Source of the DNA: a virus | Direction: 5' to 3' (one strand) | DNA: 41,093 bases | IMG/VR virus record: IMGVR_UViG_3300048582_000062 | Coordinates: 1 to 41,093 of that record | Shown: positions 9,343 through 30,525 of the stretch, in pieces | Numbering within the stretch: the first letter of the stretch is position 1 | Layout: every line of letters starts with the position of its first letter | Notes under the pieces: model-generated | Databases searched by the model: none | What the model was told of the DNA's origin: nothing | The model's input: only the letters and a program-made list of their open reading frames with translations | Translations under genes and position numbers: made by a program

Positions 9343-10194
9343 ATGACGACCGCCACCTATGCGACGCGCGTGCCGGTCCATCCTGATCGGATGGGTGCGG
9401 TCAAGACGTCCGGCCCGAACTTGTGGGCGATCCTGCACACATCGGAAGGCGGCGAAGGTGTCGACTCTGCCGAGCAGCTCGCGTCGTTCCTGTCCCGGCC
9501 GGGTGATCGACCGAACGGATCGGGCGGCAAGTACGGCTCGAGCTATCACGTCATTTTCGACACGGACCGGGTGATCCCTGCCGTGTACTACGAGATCGTG
9601 GCCTATTCGGCGGGCGGTGCGAACGCTCAAGGCATCCACGGGTGTTTCCCCGGCAAGGCCGGTCAGACCCGTGAGCAGTGGTTGGATGATGTGTCGAGGG
9701 CGATGATCCGTCAGTGCGCGGCGTGGCTGGTCGACATCCAAGCACAGTTCGGTATCCCGGTGGATCGCAAGATGTTCCCCGGTGAGATGCTGGCGGGCGA
9801 CACGGGGCTCGGCGATCACTTCACGGTGACCGAGGCGTTCGGCAAGTCGACGCACACCGATGTCGGGCCGGGGTTCCCGTGGGATGTCCTGTTCGCTGAC
9901 ATCGCTGCACTCACCGCGCCTGTCCCACCACCACCACCACCACCACCGCAATCCGAAGGAGATTCCGTGCTCGTCAACCTGATCCGACTCGAAGGGACGC
10001 CCGCTGTGTACGCCCAGTATTCGGGCGGCTACAAGTGCTGGGTGCCGGACGAGGCGACTCTCGGAGCGCACGTCATGATCTCTGGTCTGACGGTCACCGT
10101 CATCGCCAAGAAGCATCTCGGGCTCTGGAAGTCCAGTGGCCCCATCCTCGGTCCAGTGCCGGCCGGCGTCGACGCCTGGGGTGTGCCGAAGTGA
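9343..10194 (+). CDS. Endolysin, N-acetylmuramoyl-L-alanine amidase
   Basis: 283 aa. An amidase_2/PGRP-type catalytic domain covers residues about 20-190: His32 in ILHTSEG, GKYGSSYHVIFD around His69, and the C-terminal motif His171-Thr-Asp173-Val-Gly-Pro-Gly-Phe-Pro-Trp, giving the Zn ligands His32, His171 and Asp173. A run of eight prolines (about 195-202) links to a C-terminal domain of about 75 residues, possibly for cell-wall binding. It would cleave the bond between peptidoglycan sugar and stem peptide for lysis. Holin-type genes follow directly. Confidence 0.9.
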   Translation: MTTATYATRVPVHPDRMGAVKTSGPNLWAILHTSEGGEGVDSAEQLASFLSRPGDRPNGSGGKYGSSYHVIFDTDRVIPAVYYEIVAYSAGGANAQGIHGCFPGKAGQTREQWLDDVSRAMIRQCAAWLVDIQAQFGIPVDRKMFPGEMLAGDTGLGDHFTVTEAFGKSTHTDVGPGFPWDVLFADIAALTAPVPPPPPPPPQSEGDSVLVNLIRLEGTPAVYAQYSGGYKCWVPDEATLGAHVMISGLTVTVIAKKHLGLWKSSGPILGPVPAGVDAWGVPK

Positions 10195-10979: not shown

Positions 10980-11164
10980 CCGGCTGGGACTGGGTGGTCT
11001 TGGCGATCATGGTGCTGTACGCGGTGTCGGCGTTCGTGAACTGGCGGCTGGTGTACTGGCAACGCAAGTTGATCGCCGCGCAGGAGGAACAGATCAAGGC
11101 GCTGCGAGAGAGCTACGACTTGGCGACGGACCTGCTGTGGAAGCACATGCCGAGGTCGTCATGA
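10976..11164 (+). CDS. Small membrane protein
   Basis: 62 aa starting with GTG, overlapping the HTH gene stop (GTGA). One N-terminal transmembrane helix (about residues 5-25, WVVLAIMVLYAVSAFVNW) is followed by a charged helix (KLIAAQEEQIKALRESYD). It overlaps the start of the nuclease gene, so it is part of the same operon. Function unknown. Confidence 0.6.
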   Translation: MTGWDWVVLAIMVLYAVSAFVNWRLVYWQRKLIAAQEEQIKALRESYDLATDLLWKHMPRSS

Positions 11165-12072
11165 CGCCGTTCACGATCTGGAAGCCAACCGACCGGTTGG
11201 AGTGGTTGAAGGTGCGGGCACCGTACTTCAATGCGTCGTCGGCGGCAGTGCTGTTCGACCGTCACCCGTTCCAGTCCGCTGCGGACTACGCCGTCGAGAA
11301 GCTCGGTGACGTCGTCGACAACGAACCGACCGACCCGATGAACCGGGGCCGGCATCTCGAAACGGGCATCGCCGACTGGTTCGGCGAGACGATGGGGTGG
11401 ACGCTGATGGAACCGGGCGTGCTGTACGGTCGCGGCCCGCTGCTTGCCACGGTGGACCGCATCGTGGAGCAGACCGGGTCACCCGTCGAGATCAAGACGT
11501 ACAACGGGTACACGTCGGAGCCTCTGCCGTACTGGCTGGATCAATGCCAGGCGGTGCTCGCATGTACCGACACCGACACGCTGTATCTGGTGTGGATGGA
11601 TGCGTCCATGTCGTTGCAGTGGTGCGAGGTGGATCGTGACGAAGTGTTCATCGCCGATCTCGTGGACCGGGCCGAACGGTTCATGGCGGCGATCGAGTTG
11701 GGGATGATGCCGGATTGGATCACGCCCGAGGCGCATCATGTGGCGGCGTTGCATCCTGATCCGTCGGGTGAGGTGGTGCTCGACGATGACACTGCCGGGT
11801 TGCTGCGTGAGTTCGACGAGCATCGCAAGGCTGCGAAGTATCACGAGGCGGCGATGAAGGAGATCAAGGATCAGGTCGCGAACGTGCTCGGTGACGCCGA
11901 GGTCGGTGTGCATGACGGGGTGACTGTCGTGTCGTGGAAGAAGGTGAAGGGCCGGTCGTCGTTCGATCAGGCTGCGTTCAAGGCTGAGCATCCCGAGTTG
12001 GTTGGCCGATATGTCAAGGTCGGGGCACCGTCCCGGCGATTCGTTGTTGCAGGAGGAAGCGAAGATGATTGA
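11161..12072 (+). CDS. YqaJ-type viral recombinase nuclease
   Basis: 303 aa. ATG 11161 overlaps the previous stop (ATGA). It has the PD-(D/E)XK core of YqaJ/lambda-exonuclease enzymes: ASSAAVLFDRHPF (25-37), NRGRHLETGIADWF with Glu67, LATVDRI with Asp99, and VEIKTY with Glu110 and Lys112, then LDQCQAVLAC (about 127-136). These enzymes resect double-stranded ends 5' to 3' for single-strand annealing recombination. The partner annealing protein follows directly. Confidence 0.85.
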   Translation: MTPFTIWKPTDRLEWLKVRAPYFNASSAAVLFDRHPFQSAADYAVEKLGDVVDNEPTDPMNRGRHLETGIADWFGETMGWTLMEPGVLYGRGPLLATVDRIVEQTGSPVEIKTYNGYTSEPLPYWLDQCQAVLACTDTDTLYLVWMDASMSLQWCEVDRDEVFIADLVDRAERFMAAIELGMMPDWITPEAHHVAALHPDPSGEVVLDDDTAGLLREFDEHRKAAKYHEAAMKEIKDQVANVLGDAEVGVHDGVTVVSWKKVKGRSSFDQAAFKAEHPELVGRYVKVGAPSRRFVVAGGSEDD

Positions 12073-12961
12073 GTTGCCGTTGGTTGCCGAGAAGTGGGCG
12101 CAACCGCCCGCTGCGTTGATCTCCAAGCTGGATCGTGGCAAGGGGGTGAAGCTCGACTACCTCGGGCACGCCGATACCACGTTGGCGTTGATCGACGTCG
12201 ACCCAGAGTTCACGTACGACTATGCCCGCGACGAGCGTGGCCGCATGGACGTGTACGAGATGGGGTCGAACTGGGTGCTCGAGGGCACGGTCACGGTGCA
12301 TGGTGTGACGAGGCCGTGTGTCGGGACGTGCGAGAAGCGCAAGGCTGAGGTCCACAAGGAGTTGTTGGGCGATCTGTTGCGGAACGGGGCGATGCGGTTC
12401 GGGATTGCGACGGCGTTGTGGTCGAAGCTGGATGATGCGACCGACGCCCATTTCGCGAAGCCTGCCGAGCCGACGCCGTTGTCGACGGCGAACCTCGCCA
12501 AGTTCGATGCGGCGTGTACGGAGGCGGGGTTGTCGCCGGCTGCGGTGATGGGCAAGGCGTTCCCGTCTGGTCGGCCCGAGCCGTTGCTCGACATTCATCT
12601 CCCGGTGATGCGGGATGCGTTCAAGCAGATGAAGGCGGCGGTCGCTGACGTGGCAGATGTGTCGGGCGTTCATGATGTGCAGCGCGGCCAGGTGGGCGAC
12701 GAGCCCGAGCACGAGCCCGAGCCCGAGGTGACGTTGGCTTCGGACGCGCAGGTGAAGAAGATTCAGATACTCATGGGCGAGGCCGGGATCAAGGATCGTG
12801 TCGCCCGGTTGGAGTACATCCGCAAGGCGCTCGGGTTGGAGTCGCGTCCGGCTTCGACGAAGAACCTGTCACGTCAGCAGGCACACACACTGATCGAGTA
12901 CATGGAGTCTGATGCGCGACCGGCTGAGCAGGGTGAGTTCGATGGGTTGGTCGAGTCGTGA
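12065..12961 (+). CDS. Single-strand annealing protein (Erf/Sak/Rad52-like)
   Basis: 298 aa with ribosome-binding site AGGAGGA before ATG 12065, overlapping the nuclease by 8 bases. Residues about 25-140 match the phage annealing-protein pattern: YLGHADTTLALIDVDPEFTYDY, then ELLGDLLRNGAMRFGIATALWSKLDD. An acidic Pro/Glu linker (about 217-227) leads to a C-terminal module with QVKKIQILMGEAG and TKNLSRQQAHTLIEYME, also seen in other phage recombinases. It would pair complementary single strands made by the YqaJ nuclease. The exact annealing family is uncertain. Confidence 0.75.
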   Translation: MIELPLVAEKWAQPPAALISKLDRGKGVKLDYLGHADTTLALIDVDPEFTYDYARDERGRMDVYEMGSNWVLEGTVTVHGVTRPCVGTCEKRKAEVHKELLGDLLRNGAMRFGIATALWSKLDDATDAHFAKPAEPTPLSTANLAKFDAACTEAGLSPAAVMGKAFPSGRPEPLLDIHLPVMRDAFKQMKAAVADVADVSGVHDVQRGQVGDEPEHEPEPEVTLASDAQVKKIQILMGEAGIKDRVARLEYIRKALGLESRPASTKNLSRQQAHTLIEYMESDARPAEQGEFDGLVES

Positions 12962-15991: not shown

Positions 15992-16022
15992 CTTCATTTC
16001 CTCCTGTGTGTGTGGTTGGTAG

Positions 16023-16048
16023 TGGCCGAGCCGGGAATCGAACCCGGC
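16023..16048 (-). other. tRNA T-arm/acceptor-like fragment
   Basis: On the minus strand this is a perfect T-arm: stem CCGGG, loop TTCGATT, stem CCCGG, followed by a 7-nt acceptor-like CTCGGCC and A. No matching 5' acceptor strand (GGCCGAG), D-arm or anticodon arm is found upstream, so a complete tRNA is not supported. It lies between two genes. It may be the captured 3' half of a host tRNA, as in attachment sites, but no integrase was recognised. Confidence 0.45.
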
Positions 16049-16080
16049 ATTATCACGCAACCCGCGCAGCCCGTAACAGT

Positions 16081-16440
16081 TCAACCGGCGTCGATCGTCT
16101 CAGGAGCCAACATTGCACGACACTCCGTTGAATCGAAATCAACGACACCGTCGGCCATCATCCGTTCCCAATCCGGCCCGCACAACTCCGGCGCCCACTC
16201 AGCGAACGCCATCATGGTTTCAAGAGCCGTCACAATGTTCGGGCGGCGATCATCGCAAACAGTCGTGAGATCATCACCTCGGGCGATCACCTCACCGTGG
16301 TCGCTGGTCCCGTCGTGACGGATCTCCCAATTCCAGCGCGCCCGATCAGACTGGAACGCATCCCAGCGAGCAAACGACACCGAGAACACGAGTCCGGTAC
16401 CGGTGGACATTGACAAGGTTGGTTCTGGTTGGTAGGTCAT
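16081..16440 (-). CDS. Hypothetical protein, first gene of the leftward cluster
   Basis: 119 aa from ATG 16440. There is no ribosome-binding site; a degenerate -10 (CACGAT on the minus strand, 16447-16452) lies 6 nt before the ATG and TTGGAC (16471-16476) lies 18 nt further up, so a leaderless start is possible. It resembles an alpha/beta domain (TGLVFSVSFARWDAF, WNWEIRHDG) with a Trp/Met-rich helix (VTALETMMAFAEWAPELCGPDW, internal). No family recognised. Confidence 0.55.
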   Translation of the reverse strand: MTYQPEPTLSMSTGTGLVFSVSFARWDAFQSDRARWNWEIRHDGTSDHGEVIARGDDLTTVCDDRRPNIVTALETMMAFAEWAPELCGPDWERMMADGVVDFDSTECRAMLAPETIDAG

Positions 16441-16536
16441 GACACCATCGTGAAGCCAACGACACGAGAAGTCCAACAGTTCCTACAGATACCCCCCATC
16501 TCCCACACAGATACCCCAGCTAGATACCCTGAACCA
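16441..16536. promoter_or_regulatory. Divergent promoter region with three AGATACCC(C/T) repeats
   Basis: Between the divergent genes at 16440 and 16537 the sequence AGATACCCC or AGATACCCT occurs three times, at 16487, 16509 and 16522. The third copy contains TACCCT (16525-16530) exactly 6 nt before ATG 16537, a leaderless promoter for the plus-strand gene. The first two lie 22 bp apart, about two helical turns, and could be operator sites. Confidence 0.5.
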
Positions 16537-16992
16537 ATGAGCAAACGCACCGACCAGCTCACCCCATTCACCCCCGAAACAGCCTCCCGCGCCGGCAAAC
16601 GATCCGCCGAAGTCCGACGCCAACGAGCCATAGCCAGACAAGTCGAACAGGCCCAAGACGCACGCACACTCGCCACACACCTCCAAACGTTCGCCGACAC
16701 CTTCCAACGAGACGACATCGGCACACACTCAGCCGCAGTCGCAGCAATGATCCTCGCTAAAATCGCAGCAGGACAAGTACCGATCCGTCACGCAGCGGAC
16801 GCAGCCGAGCTCTTGAAGGTGCTGCACGACATGACCCGACTCGAAGAAGGGCAGAGCACGTCGAACATCCTGCACGGGACGATCGACTCGGGCGCGATCA
16901 TCGCCCGCATCGAAGAACTCAGAGGCGAACTCACCACCGGACCGAACACGTCGCAAGACTCAGGCAGGGACGATCACCCACCACAGACGTGA
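16537..16992 (+). CDS. Candidate terminase small subunit / DNA-binding protein
   Basis: 151 aa. I chose ATG 16537 because it sits 6 nt after TACCCT; an upstream in-frame start at 16429 would run through the repeat region. The N-terminus is basic (TASRAGKRSAEVRRQRAIARQ), the middle helical (HSAAVAAMILAKIAAGQ, AADAAELLKVLHDMTRLEEGQ) and the C-terminus polar and disordered. Small basic helical proteins of this kind commonly act as terminase small subunits, recognising the packaging site. It lies alone on the plus strand, separated from the large subunit, so the role is inferred. Confidence 0.5.
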   Translation: MSKRTDQLTPFTPETASRAGKRSAEVRRQRAIARQVEQAQDARTLATHLQTFADTFQRDDIGTHSAAVAAMILAKIAAGQVPIRHAADAAELLKVLHDMTRLEEGQSTSNILHGTIDSGAIIARIEELRGELTTGPNTSQDSGRDDHPPQT

Positions 16993-17039
16993 GCGGCACA
17001 CCAAGACCAGGTGAGTGACAACGAAACTCGAAGCCGGCA

Positions 17040-17065
17040 CCCCCACCCCCACCCCCCCAGCCCCC
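17040..17065 (-). other. G-quadruplex motif on the minus strand
   Basis: The plus strand has C runs of 5, 5, 7 and 5 separated by single or double bases (17040-17044, 17046-17050, 17052-17058, 17061-17065). The minus strand therefore reads G5-N2-G7-N1-G5-N1-G5, an unusually strong intramolecular quadruplex motif. It lies in noncoding DNA after the candidate small terminase gene. Confidence 0.6.
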
Positions 17066-17099
17066 GCTCCGCCGTCACCACCCCTATATGGTCAGGCGT

Positions 17100-17300
17100 T
17101 CGTATAGTGCCCACCGTTTTTCGGGCACGTTGAGTTGTGTGTGTATCAGGAGAACGCTGCTCTGCTTGTAGCCGTGCTCTTGAGAAGCTTGCTGTCCCTG
17201 GCTGCTGCTAGGGCAGCACTCGGGAGGTCGGGGTACTGGTTTGCTGTTCTGGGAGAGGAGGCATCTGTGGTGCCTCTACCGCTTCGCTATTGACAGGTTG
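17100..17300. other. Noncoding region with three perfect hairpins
   Basis: Between 16993 and 17418 I see no convincing gene. Perfect inverted repeats are GTGCCC/GGGCAC (17107-17112 and 17123-17128, loop 10), TGCTGC/GCAGCA (17203-17208 and 17213-17218, loop TAGG) and GAGGCA/TGCCTC (17258-17263 and 17271-17276, loop 7). A TATAGT hexamer lies at 17103-17108. This could be a structured RNA, a packaging or replication site, or terminators; the sequence alone does not decide. Confidence 0.35.
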
Positions 17301-17400
17301 CACCCGTTCAACTTTCGTCGGGGTTACCAGCGGCGGCGGGGCCGTACTTGGTGTGTCAAGAACTTAGTGTGTGGGTTGGGTGGCGTCAAGGACGGGGGTT

Positions 17401-17414
17401 GTTGCATTTGCAAC
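17401..17414 (-). terminator. Palindrome after dpdA, possible terminator
   Basis: GTTGCA (17401-17406) and TGCAAC (17409-17414) pair around two T residues just after the stop of the minus-strand dpdA gene (17419). The loop is very short and no T run follows in the minus direction, so it may instead be a binding site. Confidence 0.3.
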
Positions 17415-17418
17415 GGGT

Positions 17419-18144
17419 TCAGAACGGGACGTGTTGGACGGGTTGTTGTTCGATTCGTTGGGTGTATCGGATGGCTTCGTTGATGTCGTTGCCGTCTCGG
17501 CCTTCGTAGCGGGCGGCGAATGACCAGGCCATTGAGTCGCTCGTGTGGAACAGTTCGCGTACTCGTTGGTTGCGGAGGGCTGTGATTTTGACGCCGAAGC
17601 CGTGGAGGCGCAGGTCGGGTCGGATGGCGTGGATGGCTTCGAGGATGCCGACGACGGAGCCGGGGTTGCGGTTGCGTTTGCAGACGGAGCCGACACCGAC
17701 CCACATGCCGGGGGTGAGCCGGTCGCCGTATTGTCGGACGTGGTCGGCGTAGTCGGCGGGTTCGTAGCCTTGGAGGACGGGCATGATGGGGACGCCGGCT
17801 GTGTCGCATTGGGTGAGGGCGTCGTACCGTTCGATGGTGAGTCGTTGGTGGTCGGCGACGGTCAGCCCGGTGCGCTCGAGCACGAACGGTTCGCACATGA
17901 AGTCCTGGGCGACTGCGGCGAGCAGGTTTCCGCAGCCGGCGAACCGTCTGATGATGGCGGCGTACTCGTCGACGCTGTCGGGGTAGCCGCCGTGTTTGTT
18001 GACCGTCGTGAACGCGCCCGAGTCCATGATCCAGACGTTCGGCTCGAAACCGGATTTGCGGTTTCGGAGTGCGTTGGCGCTGACCATTGCGTACGGCACC
18101 CGGCCCGCTTTGTTCGGGTGGTGGACGCCGACGAAGAATCTCAC
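17419..18144 (-). CDS. dpdA: DpdA-like 7-deazaguanine DNA transglycosylase
   Basis: 241 aa, starting at 18144 and overlapping the upstream stop (ATGA). It matches the short phage/actinophage DpdA type, a relative of tRNA-guanine transglycosylase that swaps guanine in DNA for a 7-deazaguanine such as preQ0. Motifs: FFVGVHHP (3-10), WIMDSGAFT with Asp41, AQDFMCEPF with Asp81, TVADHQRLT (95-103), MPVLQGYE (121-128), GVGSVCKR (150-157), HGFGVK (181-186), SDSMAWSFAAR (202-212). The Cys-rich Zn site of tRNA enzymes is not visible. No preQ0 synthesis genes are present, so the base must come from the host. It likely protects the DNA from restriction. Confidence 0.85.
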   Translation of the reverse strand: MRFFVGVHHPNKAGRVPYAMVSANALRNRKSGFEPNVWIMDSGAFTTVNKHGGYPDSVDEYAAIIRRFAGCGNLLAAVAQDFMCEPFVLERTGLTVADHQRLTIERYDALTQCDTAGVPIMPVLQGYEPADYADHVRQYGDRLTPGMWVGVGSVCKRNRNPGSVVGILEAIHAIRPDLRLHGFGVKITALRNQRVRELFHTSDSMAWSFAARYEGRDGNDINEAIRYTQRIEQQPVQHVPF

Positions 18145-18362
18145 CGTGTCCAGGTGTGGTCGGGGTAGTTGCCGCCGAGGTCGACGATGATCGCTGCGGG
18201 TCGTTCGGTGCTGGTGTTGAAGCGGCGTCGGTAGTCGTCCTGTTCGTTGCGGAGCTGTGCGCTGTTGGTGGGCTTGGAGCGGCGTCCGGTGGCGAGGGCT
18301 CGGTGGGAGAAGCGGGTGCGGGCGGCGTCTTGTGCTCGGGCGGCTCGTTCGGATTCGCGCAT
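18141..18362 (-). CDS. Small basic protein encoded with dpdA
   Basis: 73 aa. ATG 18362 lies 6 nt after TACACT (minus strand), without a ribosome-binding site, and was preferred to upstream starts. It is very basic and polar (SERAARAQDAARTRFSHRALATGRRSK; RNEQDDYRRRF) with a short hydrophobic patch AAIIVDLGG. It overlaps dpdA by ATGA, so the two form one transcription unit; it could be a nucleic-acid-binding partner of DpdA, but this is inference from context only. Confidence 0.55.
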   Translation of the reverse strand: MRESERAARAQDAARTRFSHRALATGRRSKPTNSAQLRNEQDDYRRRFNTSTERPAAIIVDLGGNYPDHTWTR

Positions 18363-22994: not shown

Positions 22995-23399
22995 TCATGG
23001 TGTCCATTCGGTGACGCGCCCGAACGAGAGCAGCGTCACGATCTCGTTGCCGTCGCGCGGACGCCACATGCGGTAGAACACGCGGTCGCGTTGCTCGGGC
23101 ATGACCGGCTCGTCGAGCCAGTCGTTGATCGCAGAGGCGCAGCGCATAAACACCGTCGCCCACTCCTTCTGTTCGGCGCTCATCGTCGATCCCGTCTCGC
23201 GCTTCATCTCGGCGAAGATGATGTAGCCCTTCTCGTGGATCATCGTCAGGTCGGGGTAGCCCTTGCCGTCGTACTTGACCGGGGTGCGCCATCCCTTGCC
23301 GGTCCCGGCCGGACGGAACGATGCGACCTTCCAGCCCCAGAGGTGGGCGAGTTCGACAACCTTCTGCTCGAACACGATCTCGGTGTCAGTGTTCTTCAT
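22995..23399 (-). CDS. VRR-NUC-like nuclease
   Basis: 134 aa. ATG 23399 overlaps the stop of the small membrane gene (ATGA). PD-(D/E)XK core: Glu11 in VFEQKVVELA, GKGYPDLTMI with Asp50, IIFAEMKRE with Glu64 and Lys66, and Gln77 in SAEQKEW. Stand-alone VRR-NUC proteins in phages act on branched or flap DNA, for instance as junction resolvases. It likely serves recombination or packaging. Confidence 0.8.
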   Translation of the reverse strand: MKNTDTEIVFEQKVVELAHLWGWKVASFRPAGTGKGWRTPVKYDGKGYPDLTMIHEKGYIIFAEMKRETGSTMSAEQKEWATVFMRCASAINDWLDEPVMPEQRDRVFYRMWRPRDGNEIVTLLSFGRVTEWTP

Positions 23400-23512
23400 C
23401 GGCGCATCCATCGAATCCAGGCGTCGATCAGCAGGATCGCCAACGACACCCATCCGGCCGCAATGACAATCATGAGGGCAGTCTCGTTCGGTCTGTAGTG
23501 GTCGCTCATCAT
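23396..23512 (-). CDS. 38-aa membrane protein, first gene of the leftward operon
   Basis: Start ATG 23512 (or 23509) right after the promoter, without a ribosome-binding site. One helix (about residues 13-32, LMIVIAAGWVSLAILLIDAW) with a basic C-terminal end (IRWMRR), so the N-terminus is probably outside. The stop overlaps the nuclease start (ATGA). Function unknown. Confidence 0.6.
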   Translation of the reverse strand: MMSDHYRPNETALMIVIAAGWVSLAILLIDAWIRWMRR

Positions 23513-23569
23513 CACTACAACTCAACCACATCACGACTGCCCGGTCAAGGGAAAGTTACGCTGGCTGCG
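23513..23569. promoter_or_regulatory. Divergent promoters between early operon and terminase
   Basis: On the minus strand TTGACC (23543-23548), a 17-nt spacer and TTGAGT (23520-23525) form the best -35/-10 pair in the window, with the -10 ending 7 nt before ATG 23512. On the plus strand TACGCT (23557-23562) lies 7 nt before ATG 23570. Both transcripts would be nearly leaderless, and polymerases cannot use both sites independently in only 57 bp. Confidence 0.6.
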
Positions 23570-25168
23570 ATGGCCGACGAACTGCTCCAAGCGATCGCAT
23601 CGCTCACACCCGAGCAGGTGGCATCCATGTCACCGAAAGACCAGGCGATGATCCAAGGCGCACTCGAGCGCCAACTTCTGCTGCGATCCCCGGCCGACTT
23701 CGCAGCAGGTATGTCGCACGGACAATGGAAGCCGTACCGGCATCTCACTCACATCTCGAACCGGATCGTCAGCATGGTCGAACAGGACACATGCGACCTG
23801 CTCATCGTCGAAGCGACCGTCCGTCACGGCAAGACGCAACTCTGCTCGCACTGGACGCCCGCGTGGTACATCACCAAGTACCGTCGCCCGGTCGGCCTGT
23901 CGTCCTACGAAGCAGAGTTCGCCGCCACCCACGGCCGACGTGTCCGTGAGATCATCAAAGAGATCGGGCCACGGTTCGGACTGGAAATCGACGACACGTC
24001 ACGGGCAGCGAACCGGTGGGAACTGCTAGGCGGCGGCGGAATGTGGACGGCAGGCGCAGGCGGCTCCATCACCGGTCGTGGTGCCCCACTCCTGTTGTGC
24101 GACGACCCGATCAAGAACGGTGAGGAAGCATCATCGCCGGTCATGCGCGAGAAGCTGTGGGAGTGGTGGACGTCAACGTGGATCACCCGCCGCGAGGATT
24201 CGCTTGCGATCGCCGGTCGCACCAAGTTCGTGCTCATCATGTCGCGCTGGCACGTCGATGACATCACCGGACGACTGATCGAACGGATGGCCGAACTCGG
24301 CACCCGTGTCGAAGTGGTGCGGCTCCCGGCGATCGCAGAAGAAGATGACGTGCTCGGCCGTCGCCCCGGCGATGCGCTCTGCCCCGAAATGTACGACGCC
24401 GAAGCACTCGCCGGTATCCGCAAGGACGTCGGACCCGGCCCGTGGATGTCGCTGTACCAGCAGCGCCCGGTCGCTGTCGGCGGCGGCATGTTGAAACCGG
24501 AATGGTTGCAGCATTGGACGTCGGAGACGATGGGTGGTGAGACGTACTACAAGCTCGGCGACCACTACGTGCTCGACTCGGAACTGTGGCGGTTCTCGAC
24601 GATGGACACTGCGTACACGCGCACCAAGACGTCGGACTACACCGTCATCGCGACGTGGGGTGTCGCCCCGACCGACCCGACGTCACTCGTGCTGCTCAAC
24701 TTGCAGCGCCGCCGTGTCACGCACGTCGACCATGCGCCGATGATCTTGGACGAGTGGAACACGATGCGGCCGGCGTGGGTCGGCATCGAGAAGCAGATGG
24801 CAACCCTGTCCGTGTTCGACGATGCCGCCCGTCAGGGTGTCGTGGTGCGCTGGTTGACGCCCGACAAGAACAAGGTGGCCCGTGCTGAAACGGCGGCGGC
24901 TCTGATGGAGCAGGGCCGTATCTGGGTGCCGAGGGATGCGCCGTGGATGCCGGACTTCATCGACGAGCTGGCGTCGTTCCCGCTCGGCAAACACGATGAC
25001 CAAGTCGATGTGCTCACCTACGCCTGCAACGAGTTGTCGAAGCGGACGGTGCAACCGAAGAAGATCAAGAAGGGGCCCGAGTCGCGCGAGGAAGAAATGT
25101 GGGAGAAGCTCCAGAAGCGCAACCGGGCGGCACGGCACCGCTTCCACCCGACGCTCGGTCGCTGGTAA
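23570..25168 (+). CDS. terL: Terminase large subunit
   Basis: 532 aa. ATG 23570 follows a leaderless promoter; longer in-frame versions would run over the divergent promoter. ATPase domain: Walker A-like EATVRHGKTQ (81-90, Lys88), Walker B LLLCDDP (174-180), then coupling region FVLIMSRWHVDD. RNase H-like nuclease domain: STMDTAY with Asp346, GIEKQ with Glu407, and GKHDDQVDVL with Asp476, Asp477 and Asp480. It translocates DNA into the prohead and cuts it. An HNH gene follows. Confidence 0.9.
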   Translation: MADELLQAIASLTPEQVASMSPKDQAMIQGALERQLLLRSPADFAAGMSHGQWKPYRHLTHISNRIVSMVEQDTCDLLIVEATVRHGKTQLCSHWTPAWYITKYRRPVGLSSYEAEFAATHGRRVREIIKEIGPRFGLEIDDTSRAANRWELLGGGGMWTAGAGGSITGRGAPLLLCDDPIKNGEEASSPVMREKLWEWWTSTWITRREDSLAIAGRTKFVLIMSRWHVDDITGRLIERMAELGTRVEVVRLPAIAEEDDVLGRRPGDALCPEMYDAEALAGIRKDVGPGPWMSLYQQRPVAVGGGMLKPEWLQHWTSETMGGETYYKLGDHYVLDSELWRFSTMDTAYTRTKTSDYTVIATWGVAPTDPTSLVLLNLQRRRVTHVDHAPMILDEWNTMRPAWVGIEKQMATLSVFDDAARQGVVVRWLTPDKNKVARAETAAALMEQGRIWVPRDAPWMPDFIDELASFPLGKHDDQVDVLTYACNELSKRTVQPKKIKKGPESREEEMWEKLQKRNRAARHRFHPTLGRW

Positions 25169-26274: not shown

Positions 26275-28254
26275 ATGGACGAGGAACAGAAGCCGCTCAC
26301 CCCCGCCAAAGTGCGTGAGTGCTGGGACAAGGGTGTGAAGGCCACGAGGCCCGAACGGCAGACCGCGTCCGTCAATCACCAGTTCATCCGCAACAAGATG
26401 TGGGTGTACTGGAACGAAGGATCGAACCGTCTCGAAGAAGTGCCACGCTCCCCTGAACGTGTCCGTGCGTCGGTGGCCCGCATCGGGCCTGACACGCGGG
26501 TCATCATGTCGAAGCTGACTCGTCGCCCGTTGCAGTTTGAGGTGCCGCCCACCACACCCGACGACAAGGCGATGAAGGGGTCACGCATCGCCGAGTCGGC
26601 GCTCGCTCAGGCCGCACGCGAACAGAACTGGGAATCACGCCGCCGCGACCATGCCTACACGACATGGGAGGCCGGGGTCGGTGGGCTGTGCGTCGAATGG
26701 GACGCGACGACCGGCACGGCGATCGGAGAGAACCCGCAGACCGGCAGGCCGATCATGACCGGTGACGCGAAGGTGTCGGTCGTGTCGCTGCACGAAATGT
26801 CGTTCGAGCCTGGCACACGCGACGGTGAACACGCCCGCTACTGGACGTGGGGCCAGGCGCTCCCGCCCGAGGAAGTGCGTGACCTGTACGGGATGGGCAA
26901 GACCCCGAAGGCTGACGCCCAAGCGCTCGACGTCATCCACCGTCTCGGCGAGTCCCGCAACAACACGCCGCTCACGATGGTCTACACCTACTACTGCCGT
27001 CCGTCGGATCGGATGCCGCAAGGTGCGATCGCCACCGTCGTCGGAGACGAGTTCGTCGACCTCACACCGTGGAATTTTCCGTTCGACGATCGCCTCAACG
27101 TGTCGCTCGCCGTTGTCGAACCGATCCACGGGCACTGGTTCGGGCACACACCCGTCACCGACGCCGTCCCCATCCAGGCCGCGTACAACGCGTCATGGTC
27201 GTCGATCATCGAACACATGAAGAACGCCGGCAACGCCCGACTGTGGGTGCCGATGGGATCGGTCGAGGACATCGAGGACTTGTCGGACACGTCCGGTGAA
27301 GCCGTCGAGTACACCGCCGTCAACGGGATGCGCCCCACCTATGAGGCACCGCCGTCGATGCCGGACTGGTGGATTCGCCAACCGGCGATGCTGGAAGCCG
27401 CAATGGACGACGTCCTGTCGTTGCACGCCATCTCTCGTGGGCAGGCACCGTCAGGTGTCGAATCGGGGATCGCCATGTCGATCCTGTCGGAGAACGATGA
27501 CAGTCCTGTCGGTTCGCTCGCCCGGTCGCTCGGCGACTGTTGGGGGCGTGCAGCGTCGATGGTGCTCAAGCTGTACGAATCGAACGTCAAAGAGACACGC
27601 ACCGCCACCATCGCACACTCCGGTCAAGGCTCGATCCCTGAGGTGATCCGCTGGAACGGTGGCGACCTCGCAGGCCAGACCACCGCGGTCGTCCCCGCCG
27701 ACGCCGTCATCCCCCGCAACCGTTCGGCGCAGGCCGCGTACGCCTTCCAGTTGTACGACCGGCAGATCATCACGAACCCGGCCGAACTTGCCAAGATCGC
27801 CGACCTGCCCGACCAGTCCGACCTTCTCGAAGGCATCTCACCGGACTCTGCTCGAGCGCACCGCGAGAACTATTGGCTGGCTGCGGGCAAGGCGCGCACC
27901 GTCGACAACTTCGACGCGCACGACAACCACATCACCATCCACCGTGACTTCATGCGGTCGGAGCGTTTCGAGAATCTGCCACCCGAGATTCAGCAGATGT
28001 TCCGCGATCACATGCTGGCCCACGAAATGTATGCCGCTGGCCGTGGGGCCGAGCAGGTACAGGCTGCGTCTGTGTCGCCGCTCGCTGCCGTGCTGCCCAC
28101 CGAAGCCACCGACGTCATCCCGTTGGAGATGCTCGGCGGTGCAGGTGTGGCGGCGGGCGGCGCAGGCCCGATGCCGGTAGATGTGCCGGTCGCGGGCACC
28201 GAGATCAAAGAAGAAGAACCACAACAGGAGGAAGAAGAAGATGCTGATGAGTGA
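26275..28254 (+). CDS. Portal protein
   Basis: 659 aa. Position after terminase and before scaffold and capsid, size, and a mixed alpha/beta body with a long helical C-terminal half (LPDQSDLLEGISPDSARAHRENYWL; PPEIQQMFRDHMLAHEMYAAG) fit podovirus-type portal proteins, which form the dodecameric ring for DNA passage. The N-terminal region is basic (TRPERQTASVNHQ) and the C-terminal 15 residues are very acidic (EEEEDADE). Its last 14 bases overlap the scaffold start, and they contain that gene's ribosome-binding region. Confidence 0.8.
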   Translation: MDEEQKPLTPAKVRECWDKGVKATRPERQTASVNHQFIRNKMWVYWNEGSNRLEEVPRSPERVRASVARIGPDTRVIMSKLTRRPLQFEVPPTTPDDKAMKGSRIAESALAQAAREQNWESRRRDHAYTTWEAGVGGLCVEWDATTGTAIGENPQTGRPIMTGDAKVSVVSLHEMSFEPGTRDGEHARYWTWGQALPPEEVRDLYGMGKTPKADAQALDVIHRLGESRNNTPLTMVYTYYCRPSDRMPQGAIATVVGDEFVDLTPWNFPFDDRLNVSLAVVEPIHGHWFGHTPVTDAVPIQAAYNASWSSIIEHMKNAGNARLWVPMGSVEDIEDLSDTSGEAVEYTAVNGMRPTYEAPPSMPDWWIRQPAMLEAAMDDVLSLHAISRGQAPSGVESGIAMSILSENDDSPVGSLARSLGDCWGRAASMVLKLYESNVKETRTATIAHSGQGSIPEVIRWNGGDLAGQTTAVVPADAVIPRNRSAQAAYAFQLYDRQIITNPAELAKIADLPDQSDLLEGISPDSARAHRENYWLAAGKARTVDNFDAHDNHITIHRDFMRSERFENLPPEIQQMFRDHMLAHEMYAAGRGAEQVQAASVSPLAAVLPTEATDVIPLEMLGGAGVAAGGAGPMPVDVPVAGTEIKEEEPQQEEEEDADE

Positions 28255-29286: not shown

Positions 29287-30525
29287 ATGACTCAGACCCG
29301 TACCACCGCAGACGCGGTGCTCAAGGACTTCTACCTCCCGGCAGTTCGCCAGGTGCTCAACTCCGAAGTGTTCCTCCTGTCGCAAGTCGAAGCGAACAGC
29401 GAGGATGTCGAGGGCCGCGCCGCTGTCCTGTCGATCAACACCGGCCGCAACCACGGTGTCGGTGCCCGCGCCGAACTCGGAACGCTCCCGGCCGCAGGCC
29501 GTCAGGGCTACAGCGAGCAGCGCGTCAACCTCAAGTACAACTACGGCTCCATCAAGATCAGCGGCCCGCTCATGCGGTCGATGGGCTCGGACCGTGGTTC
29601 GTTCACCCGTCCTCTGGAATCGGAGACGCAGGGCGTCATCCGTGACCTCAAGAACGACGTGAACCGTCAGTGCTACGGCAACGGCACGGGCGCGATCGCC
29701 ACTTGTGCGTCGGCGTCCGGTCAGGTCATCACCCTGGCAGCCTCCACTCCGTTGACGCCGCTGCGTCAGTTGGAGATCGGCATGGTCATCGACGTCGGCA
29801 CCGTCGCGAACCCGACGCTGCGTGCAAGCTCCGTCGTCATCTCGGCTGTGAACATCAGCGCCAAGACGGTCACCGTTGTCGGAACGCTCAGCGCTTCGAC
29901 CACCACGACCGACTTCATCTTCCGTGCCGGTTCCGGTGGGGCAGATGGCGGCGTCGGCCAGAAGGAGATCACGGGCCTCAACGCCATCGTCGATTCCTCG
30001 GGCGCACTGTTCAACATCGACCCGGCTTCGGTTCCGAACTGGGCGTCGTACGAGGACGGCAACTCGGGCACCAACCGGGCCGTCGCCGAGACGATGTTCA
30101 CGAAGGCGTCGATGGAAGTCAACATCCGCTCCGGTGAGCAGATCGACCTCTGGGTGACGACCGACGGCGTCCATCGCGGTGTCGCGAACCTCCTGACCAG
30201 CCTCAAGCAGTTCCCGTCGACGAACCAGCTCAAGTCCGGCTACACCGGCCTCGACATGGGTTCAGTGTCGCAGGGCAACTCGGGCTCGCAGGAAGTGACC
30301 CTCACCTACGACAAGGACTGCACCGGCAACACGGCGTACGGTCTGACGACCAAGCGTCTCCAGCAGTACCGGATGTCGGACTGGGAGTTCATGGAGGAGG
30401 ACGGCAGCGTCCTCTCTCGTGTCAGCGGCCAGGACGCCTACGAGGCGACCCTGTTCTGCTACCACGAGCTGGCGACCGACGCGCGCAACGCGCACGCGAA
30501 GATCGCTGACCTGACCGAGTCCTGA
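29287..30525 (+). CDS. Major capsid protein
   Basis: 412 aa from ATG 29287, with AAAGG further upstream. The gene order and sequence pattern fit an HK97-fold capsid protein: N-terminal helix (DAVLKDFYLPAVRQVLNSEVFL), KYNYGSIKISGPLMRSM (about 80-97), a beta-rich A-domain part in the middle and GSVLSRVSGQDAYEATLFCYHEL near the C-terminus. It has no clear delta domain; the separate scaffold gene fits that. A strong hairpin follows, so this is the end of a transcription unit. Confidence 0.85.
   Translation: MTQTRTTADAVLKDFYLPAVRQVLNSEVFLLSQVEANSEDVEGRAAVLSINTGRNHGVGARAELGTLPAAGRQGYSEQRVNLKYNYGSIKISGPLMRSMGSDRGSFTRPLESETQGVIRDLKNDVNRQCYGNGTGAIATCASASGQVITLAASTPLTPLRQLEIGMVIDVGTVANPTLRASSVVISAVNISAKTVTVVGTLSASTTTTDFIFRAGSGGADGGVGQKEITGLNAIVDSSGALFNIDPASVPNWASYEDGNSGTNRAVAETMFTKASMEVNIRSGEQIDLWVTTDGVHRGVANLLTSLKQFPSTNQLKSGYTGLDMGSVSQGNSGSQEVTLTYDKDCTGNTAYGLTTKRLQQYRMSDWEFMEEDGSVLSRVSGQDAYEATLFCYHELATDARNAHAKIADLTES

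Follow-up and report, generated by a model that had tools for sequence, protein, structure and literature searches.

Why does this phage genome hold 426 bp free of genes directly behind the gene that probably encodes its small terminase subunit? The island lies at 16993-17418 of the window, by which we mean the whole 41,093-nucleotide stretch of viral DNA analysed here. Our answer, at a probability of roughly 0.65, is that the island is the site at which packaging of the phage DNA is initiated (pac or cos), a reading that is based on sequence comparison with related genomes.

The contig is circular, with its first 127 bases recurring at its end, and the circle is a complete 40,966-bp genome. 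The 127-bp repeat is an assembly overlap of k-mer size; end overlaps of this kind in the window and in two relatives (G001 and G010) are assembly-sized and uninformative on physical ends. Rightward genes run from terL, portal and major capsid protein through the contig junction to endolysin, a RecE-like exonuclease and an annealing protein. One single rightward gene (16537-16992) sits between two leftward gene blocks, and the island follows it directly. The features that frame the locus are:

9343-10194, rightward, endolysin
11137-12072, rightward, RecE-like exonuclease
12002-12961, rightward, single-strand annealing protein
16537-16992, plus strand, probable terS, small terminase subunit of 151 amino acids, named from synteny and a sub-threshold profile match in one homologue
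16993-17418, gene-free island of 426 bp, covered by no credible gene
17419-18144, minus strand, dpdA-like tRNA-guanine-transglycosylase gene, convergent, the right border of the island (PHROG 1279, E = 1.8e-64)
23321-25168, plus strand, terL, large terminase subunit (PHROG 38, E = 2.7e-94; Pfam Terminase_6C/6N), true start possibly as late as 23570
26275-28254, rightward, portal
29287-30525, rightward, major capsid protein

The window TerL matches Pfam Terminase_6, the N-terminal family of the T4 type. A single rightward open frame of 1,943 codons spans the contig junction (38873-41093 and 1-3738) and is split in ORF lists of the linear window.

Small terminase genes usually sit directly upstream of terL. 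Using TerL as bait, we collected relatives and then sought homologues of the 151-amino-acid protein among them. Six TerL relatives carry one, at 42-24% identity, and in two of them (G004 and G010) TerL follows it directly. One homologue also has a weak, sub-threshold match to PHROG 1063, terminase small subunit (E = 0.017). The window protein itself has no Pfam match above the cut-off and is named by no profile library, and two AlphaFold2 models (pLDDT 57.6 and 64.1) searched with Foldseek returned no significant match. Synteny together with the sub-threshold match indicates that 16537-16992 is very probably terS, which upholds the proposal of an earlier note, made from the letters of the window, that a small-terminase candidate precedes the island.

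That note had also described the island as a gene-free gap of exceptional length. The absence of genes is borne out: in the alignment with the nearest relative, G001, there are gaps of 1 nt and 3 nt and identity drops to 28% in the right third, so the island does not look coding. With a crude gene caller, 16993-17418 is among the longest true gaps of the genome; several longer called gaps exist, but these are gene-calling misses, such as the 1,943-residue frame across the contig junction. The features within the island are:

17034-17068, plus strand, C-tract block (C-box) CCGGCACCCCCACCCCCACCCCCCCAGCCCCCGCT, at the same place in eight genomes and 86% identical to G001
17040-17065, minus strand, quadruplex-capable runs G5-CT-G7-T-G5-T-G5, the sole motif in the genome made up of four G runs that are each 4 or longer
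17084-17116, plus strand, AT box of the window in degenerate form (CTATATGGTCAGGCGTTCGTATAGTGCCCACCG), aligning with the TATAGATAYTGTCCGCYCCTAG..ACCG box of the relatives
17110-17148, plus strand, block common to the window and G001, CCCACCGTTTTTCGGGCACGTTGAGTTGTGTGTGTATC (in G001, ACGCACCGTTTTTGCGGCACGTTCAGTTTGTGTGTGTATC)
17161-17418, no strand assigned, remaining part of the island, with the hairpins that start at 17203 and 17258, weakly conserved with G001

The C-box, at 86% identity between the window and G001, compares with 55% for the adjoining terS gene. Identity is 64% for the segment with the AT box and T5 (17069-17160), 57% for 17161-17250 and 28% for 17251-17418.

The comparison set comprises the window and seven uncultured relatives (G001, G003, G004, G006, G009, G010 and G011), whose TerL proteins are 54-84% identical to that of the window. 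A two-part element, consisting of a C-tract block and then a TATAGATAYTGTCCGCYCCTAG-type box, occurs in all seven relatives: downstream of TerS in the six with a visible terS, and also in G003, whose contig begins inside the island and whose terS lies beyond the contig end. The element is thus conserved in eight genomes and stands just 3' of the terS stop codon in 7/7 genomes with a visible terS, the window included. The C-tract blocks read ACCCCCACCCCCACCCCCCCAGCCCCC in the window, ACCCCCACCCCCACCCCCCGGCCCCCC in G001, ACCCCCACCCCCGATGAGCCCCGCCCCC in G010 and ACCCCCGGACCCCCGGTAGGCCCGCCCCCC in G004, and the spacer between C runs is GATGA or GGTGAGG-like, not A/T-rich. The box is clearest in G004, G006, G009 and G010, where it reads (A/T)ATAGATAYTGTCCGCYCCTAG, with CCCC for GTCC in G009.

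When each relative was held out in turn from a weight matrix, its own AT box was the top match in all seven cases (7-28 kb searched per relative). The degenerate window box was missed by this matrix and is linked to the relatives only through G001. There is one copy of the box per genome, and exact-pattern scans of IMG/VR found it only in these related genomes. Island similarity measured against dinucleotide shuffles was strong for pairs of one clade, reaching z = 40 for the window and G001, z = 17.9 for G009 and G011 and z = 14.7 for G004 and G010, and moderate between clades; the G001 island compared with those of five other TerS-bearing relatives gave z = 1.3 to 7.7. In the same shuffle test the window island alone had no significant similarity to the islands of G004, G006, G009 and G003, to which it connects only by way of G001. 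For TerS, the island and the AT box, the collection searched yielded no useful cultured relative and none with known ends, and the search for TerL relatives in genomes gave a single distant match, to a MAG. Distant matches of the island, all weak and one of them to positions 216-244 of a Salmonella phage record (E = 8), were judged to be chance.

The position of terL varies among these genomes. G004 and G010 are the only two in which it adjoins terS and the element. Leftward genes separate it from them by 3-6 kb in the window, G001, G006, G009 and G011, and in G003 the distance is about 4.5 kb. The element remains beside terS even where leftward genes have displaced terL, which fits a pac or cos site and argues against a TerL promoter. 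The element is a conserved non-coding locus, present once and linked to the terminase genes; it gives the best held-out match in the relatives and adjoins terS wherever that gene is visible. Linkage to terS would be expected if TerS recognizes DNA beside its own gene, as in SPP1.

A late promoter or other regulatory region would make the AT box a -10-like element that fires rightward into terL and the structural genes. Consistent with this, the box of G004 and G010 is followed by the terL start at a distance of about 65-120 bp, and TATAGATACT looks promoter-like by eye. However, six of the eight genomes have leftward genes after the island and terL 3-6 kb off, so that a promoter would run into opposing genes. 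The displaced genomes have no second box copy near terL, the single copy per genome also speaks against a promoter, and no sigma-70-type match (-35/-10 hexamers with 16-18 nt spacing) was found in 16000-18200. We consider a promoter unlikely.

The features that are most striking in the window coincide only in part with those that are conserved. The earlier note had placed a strong minus-strand quadruplex motif with runs of 5, 7, 5 and 5, three perfect hairpins and a TATAGT (17103-17108) in the island, and all of these positions are exact. On the plus strand, the C runs are C5 at 17040-17044, C5 at 17046-17050, C7 at 17052-17058 and C5 at 17061-17065. The motif is far above chance: the two strands of the 40,966-bp circle contain a single case of four G runs of length 4 or more, whereas 0.017 would be expected from a first-order Markov model. 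The strict quadruplex pattern is found at the C-box of the window, G001, G004 and G010 but is missing there in G003, G006, G009 and G011, whereas the pair of C-tract and AT box is what recurs. We rejected the quadruplex as a common conserved function on the grounds that it is kept in 4/8 genomes, and its potential is probably a by-product of the C-tract, because half of the relatives are without it.

The perfect 6-bp hairpins start at 17107, 17203 and 17258. They are real, but their number is not significant: the genome has 117 of them, or 1.2 expected per 426 bp against the three in the island. With their number near expectation, the hairpins were rejected as a function. Three perfect hairpins in 426 bp are also what would point to a structured non-coding RNA, the third of the functions that the earlier note had put forward beside a cos/pac site and an origin. 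This reading now appears extremely improbable, given the near-chance hairpin count, folding z-scores of 0.24 and 0.10 for the two strands (no better than shuffles) and the lack of any Rfam match overlapping the island even at E<=1; the cos/pac proposal gains from an element that is present in eight genomes and stays with terS.

A hairpin followed by T5 at 17095-17118, reported within the shared block at 17110-17148, raises the further option of a transcription terminator between convergent genes, acting through this structure or through a Rho site in a C-rich transcript. The region does lie between the convergent terS and dpdA genes, the terS transcript is C-rich and there is a terminator-like match at 17095-17111. 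Such matches are nevertheless at shuffle level (2 found against 1.7 expected), and the T5 occurs only in the window and G001. Termination would also make a sequence-specific 20-bp box unnecessary, yet the box is kept even between the co-directional terS and terL genes of G004 and G010, and we regard a terminator as very unlikely.

C-rich repeats beside an AT-rich unwinding element would also fit a replication origin, and G009 and G011 have tandem TCTCCCG repeats and palindromes further downstream. However, it is terS rather than a replication gene to which the element is linked; 4-5 kb separate it from the recombination genes at 11137-12961 (RecE-like exonuclease and single-strand annealing protein), no initiator gene was identified and no positive evidence for an origin emerged, which makes this function quite unlikely.

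If the island is the packaging-initiation site, a ring-shaped TerS would bind the element on concatemeric phage DNA, either recognizing the AT box through its shape and contacts to a few bases or docking at the C repeats as a series of contact points. TerS would then recruit TerL, which would cut in or beside the element and start to load the procapsid. The cut would either make cohesive ends at a fixed position (cos) or open a series of headful packaging rounds (pac). Modelled on HK97, recognition could fall to the AT box and cutting to the C block, or these roles could be swapped.

In SPP1, TerS binds a pac site that overlaps its own gene (PMC6316719). Like headful sites of the SPP1/SF6 type (PMC6316719, PMC4737164), the element is a single non-repeated locus at terS with repeated elements, and the binding by TerS and cutting by TerL that occur at SPP1 pac are predicted here. 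Unlike SPP1 pac, which overlaps the promoters and the start of terS, the element is 3' of the terS stop codon, and overlap with the terS promoter and start was found in none of the seven genomes with a visible terS. Its sequence, a C-tract and an AT box, also differs from the SPP1 boxes. The element, a likely packaging-initiation site that is probably read by TerS, would thus be new both for its sequence and for lying 3' of terS.

In HK97, TerS reads 15 bp through one G and A-tract shape, 15 bp from the cos cut, and HNH proteins act with terminases at cos (PMC11331095). A likeness to HK97-type cos would lie in a short element, recognized by TerS through a base contact and the shape of an A-tract, with a second functional element a few tens of bp away. 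It extends to an unrelated phage, L025: outside the related genomes, GCCGGCACCCCCACCCCC occurs in this one viral contig alone. There the 18-mer is flanked by an HNH gene on one side and a TerL of another type on the other, the gene neighbourhood in which cos is found in HK97-type phages. Unlike in HK97, no HNH gene was identified beside the window element, and TerL is of the Terminase_6 type. The L025 match is one C-rich 18-mer, a hint only that may be coincidence, and the L025 TerL has no relatives among cultured phages at E<=1e-30. At 1634-1681 of L025, a C/G-tract cluster between the HNH endonuclease gene and TerL has 24 bp in common with the G001 C-box.

Literature searches on G-rich packaging sites in phages gave nothing under the terms used, and the topic of terminases and quadruplexes led to work on herpesviruses. 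Herpesvirus pac1 consists of poly-C bundles around an A/T stretch (PMC10763189), and one pac1 forms a quadruplex in vitro, without a shown packaging role (PMC13386867). Our element is similar in joining C-tracts to an A/T-rich element at a predicted terminase-dependent packaging signal, with quadruplex potential in some members. It differs in that the A/T-rich box comes after the C-tracts rather than between two, with no flanking poly-C on both sides, and in that the quadruplex at the C-box is present in 4/8 genomes rather than conserved. The resemblance is a lead only, as likeness between low-complexity DNAs may be convergent or accidental. By this analogy, a tailed-phage lineage might have a pac1-like signal in which C-tracts (quadruplex-capable in some members) and an A/T-rich element are read together by the terminase; we hold this to be highly doubtful, but if true it would link packaging-signal design across tailed phages and the herpesvirus lineage. 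Quadruplexes depend on N7, which G runs with 7-deazaguanine would lack, and an extra twist would then be that 7-deazaguanine, the predicted product of the window's dpdA-like gene, would block the quadruplex at the same site. For phages with DpdA alone, modification status is uncertain (PMC6884629). The dpdA-like gene was not found in the four TerL relatives searched and is therefore probably a recent swap at the island border.

Packaging signals have been mapped in few phages and are rarely recognizable from sequence alone. A definable consensus in an uncultured family would provide a concrete target for TerS, at a site that stays with terS rather than with terL, and a comparison point for herpesvirus pac1.

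Several smaller observations concern the surroundings of the element. The G003 contig ends about 35 bp before its own C-box; we rejected this as a physical genome end, since it is a single contig end and C-tracts can break assemblies. Just 5' of the terS start codon in the window are three AGATACCC repeats (16484-16531), one of which has the second-best AT-box score in the window; they are not obviously retained in G001 and are possibly a terS operator or the second half of a packaging site. A further non-coding block is conserved in G009 and G011, some 150-250 bp past the AT box (L033 2230-2330 and L035 770-880); it consists of the tandem TCTCCCG repeats and then AGTCACGCGTGACT-like palindromes. 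The non-coding region after terS in G006 (L030 970-1858) is nearly 0.9 kb, twice that of the window. In the window, a leftward gene at 15557-15997 matches PHROG 4239 (E = 8.4e-34) and, more weakly, an ocr-like anti-restriction family (E = 5.3e-05).
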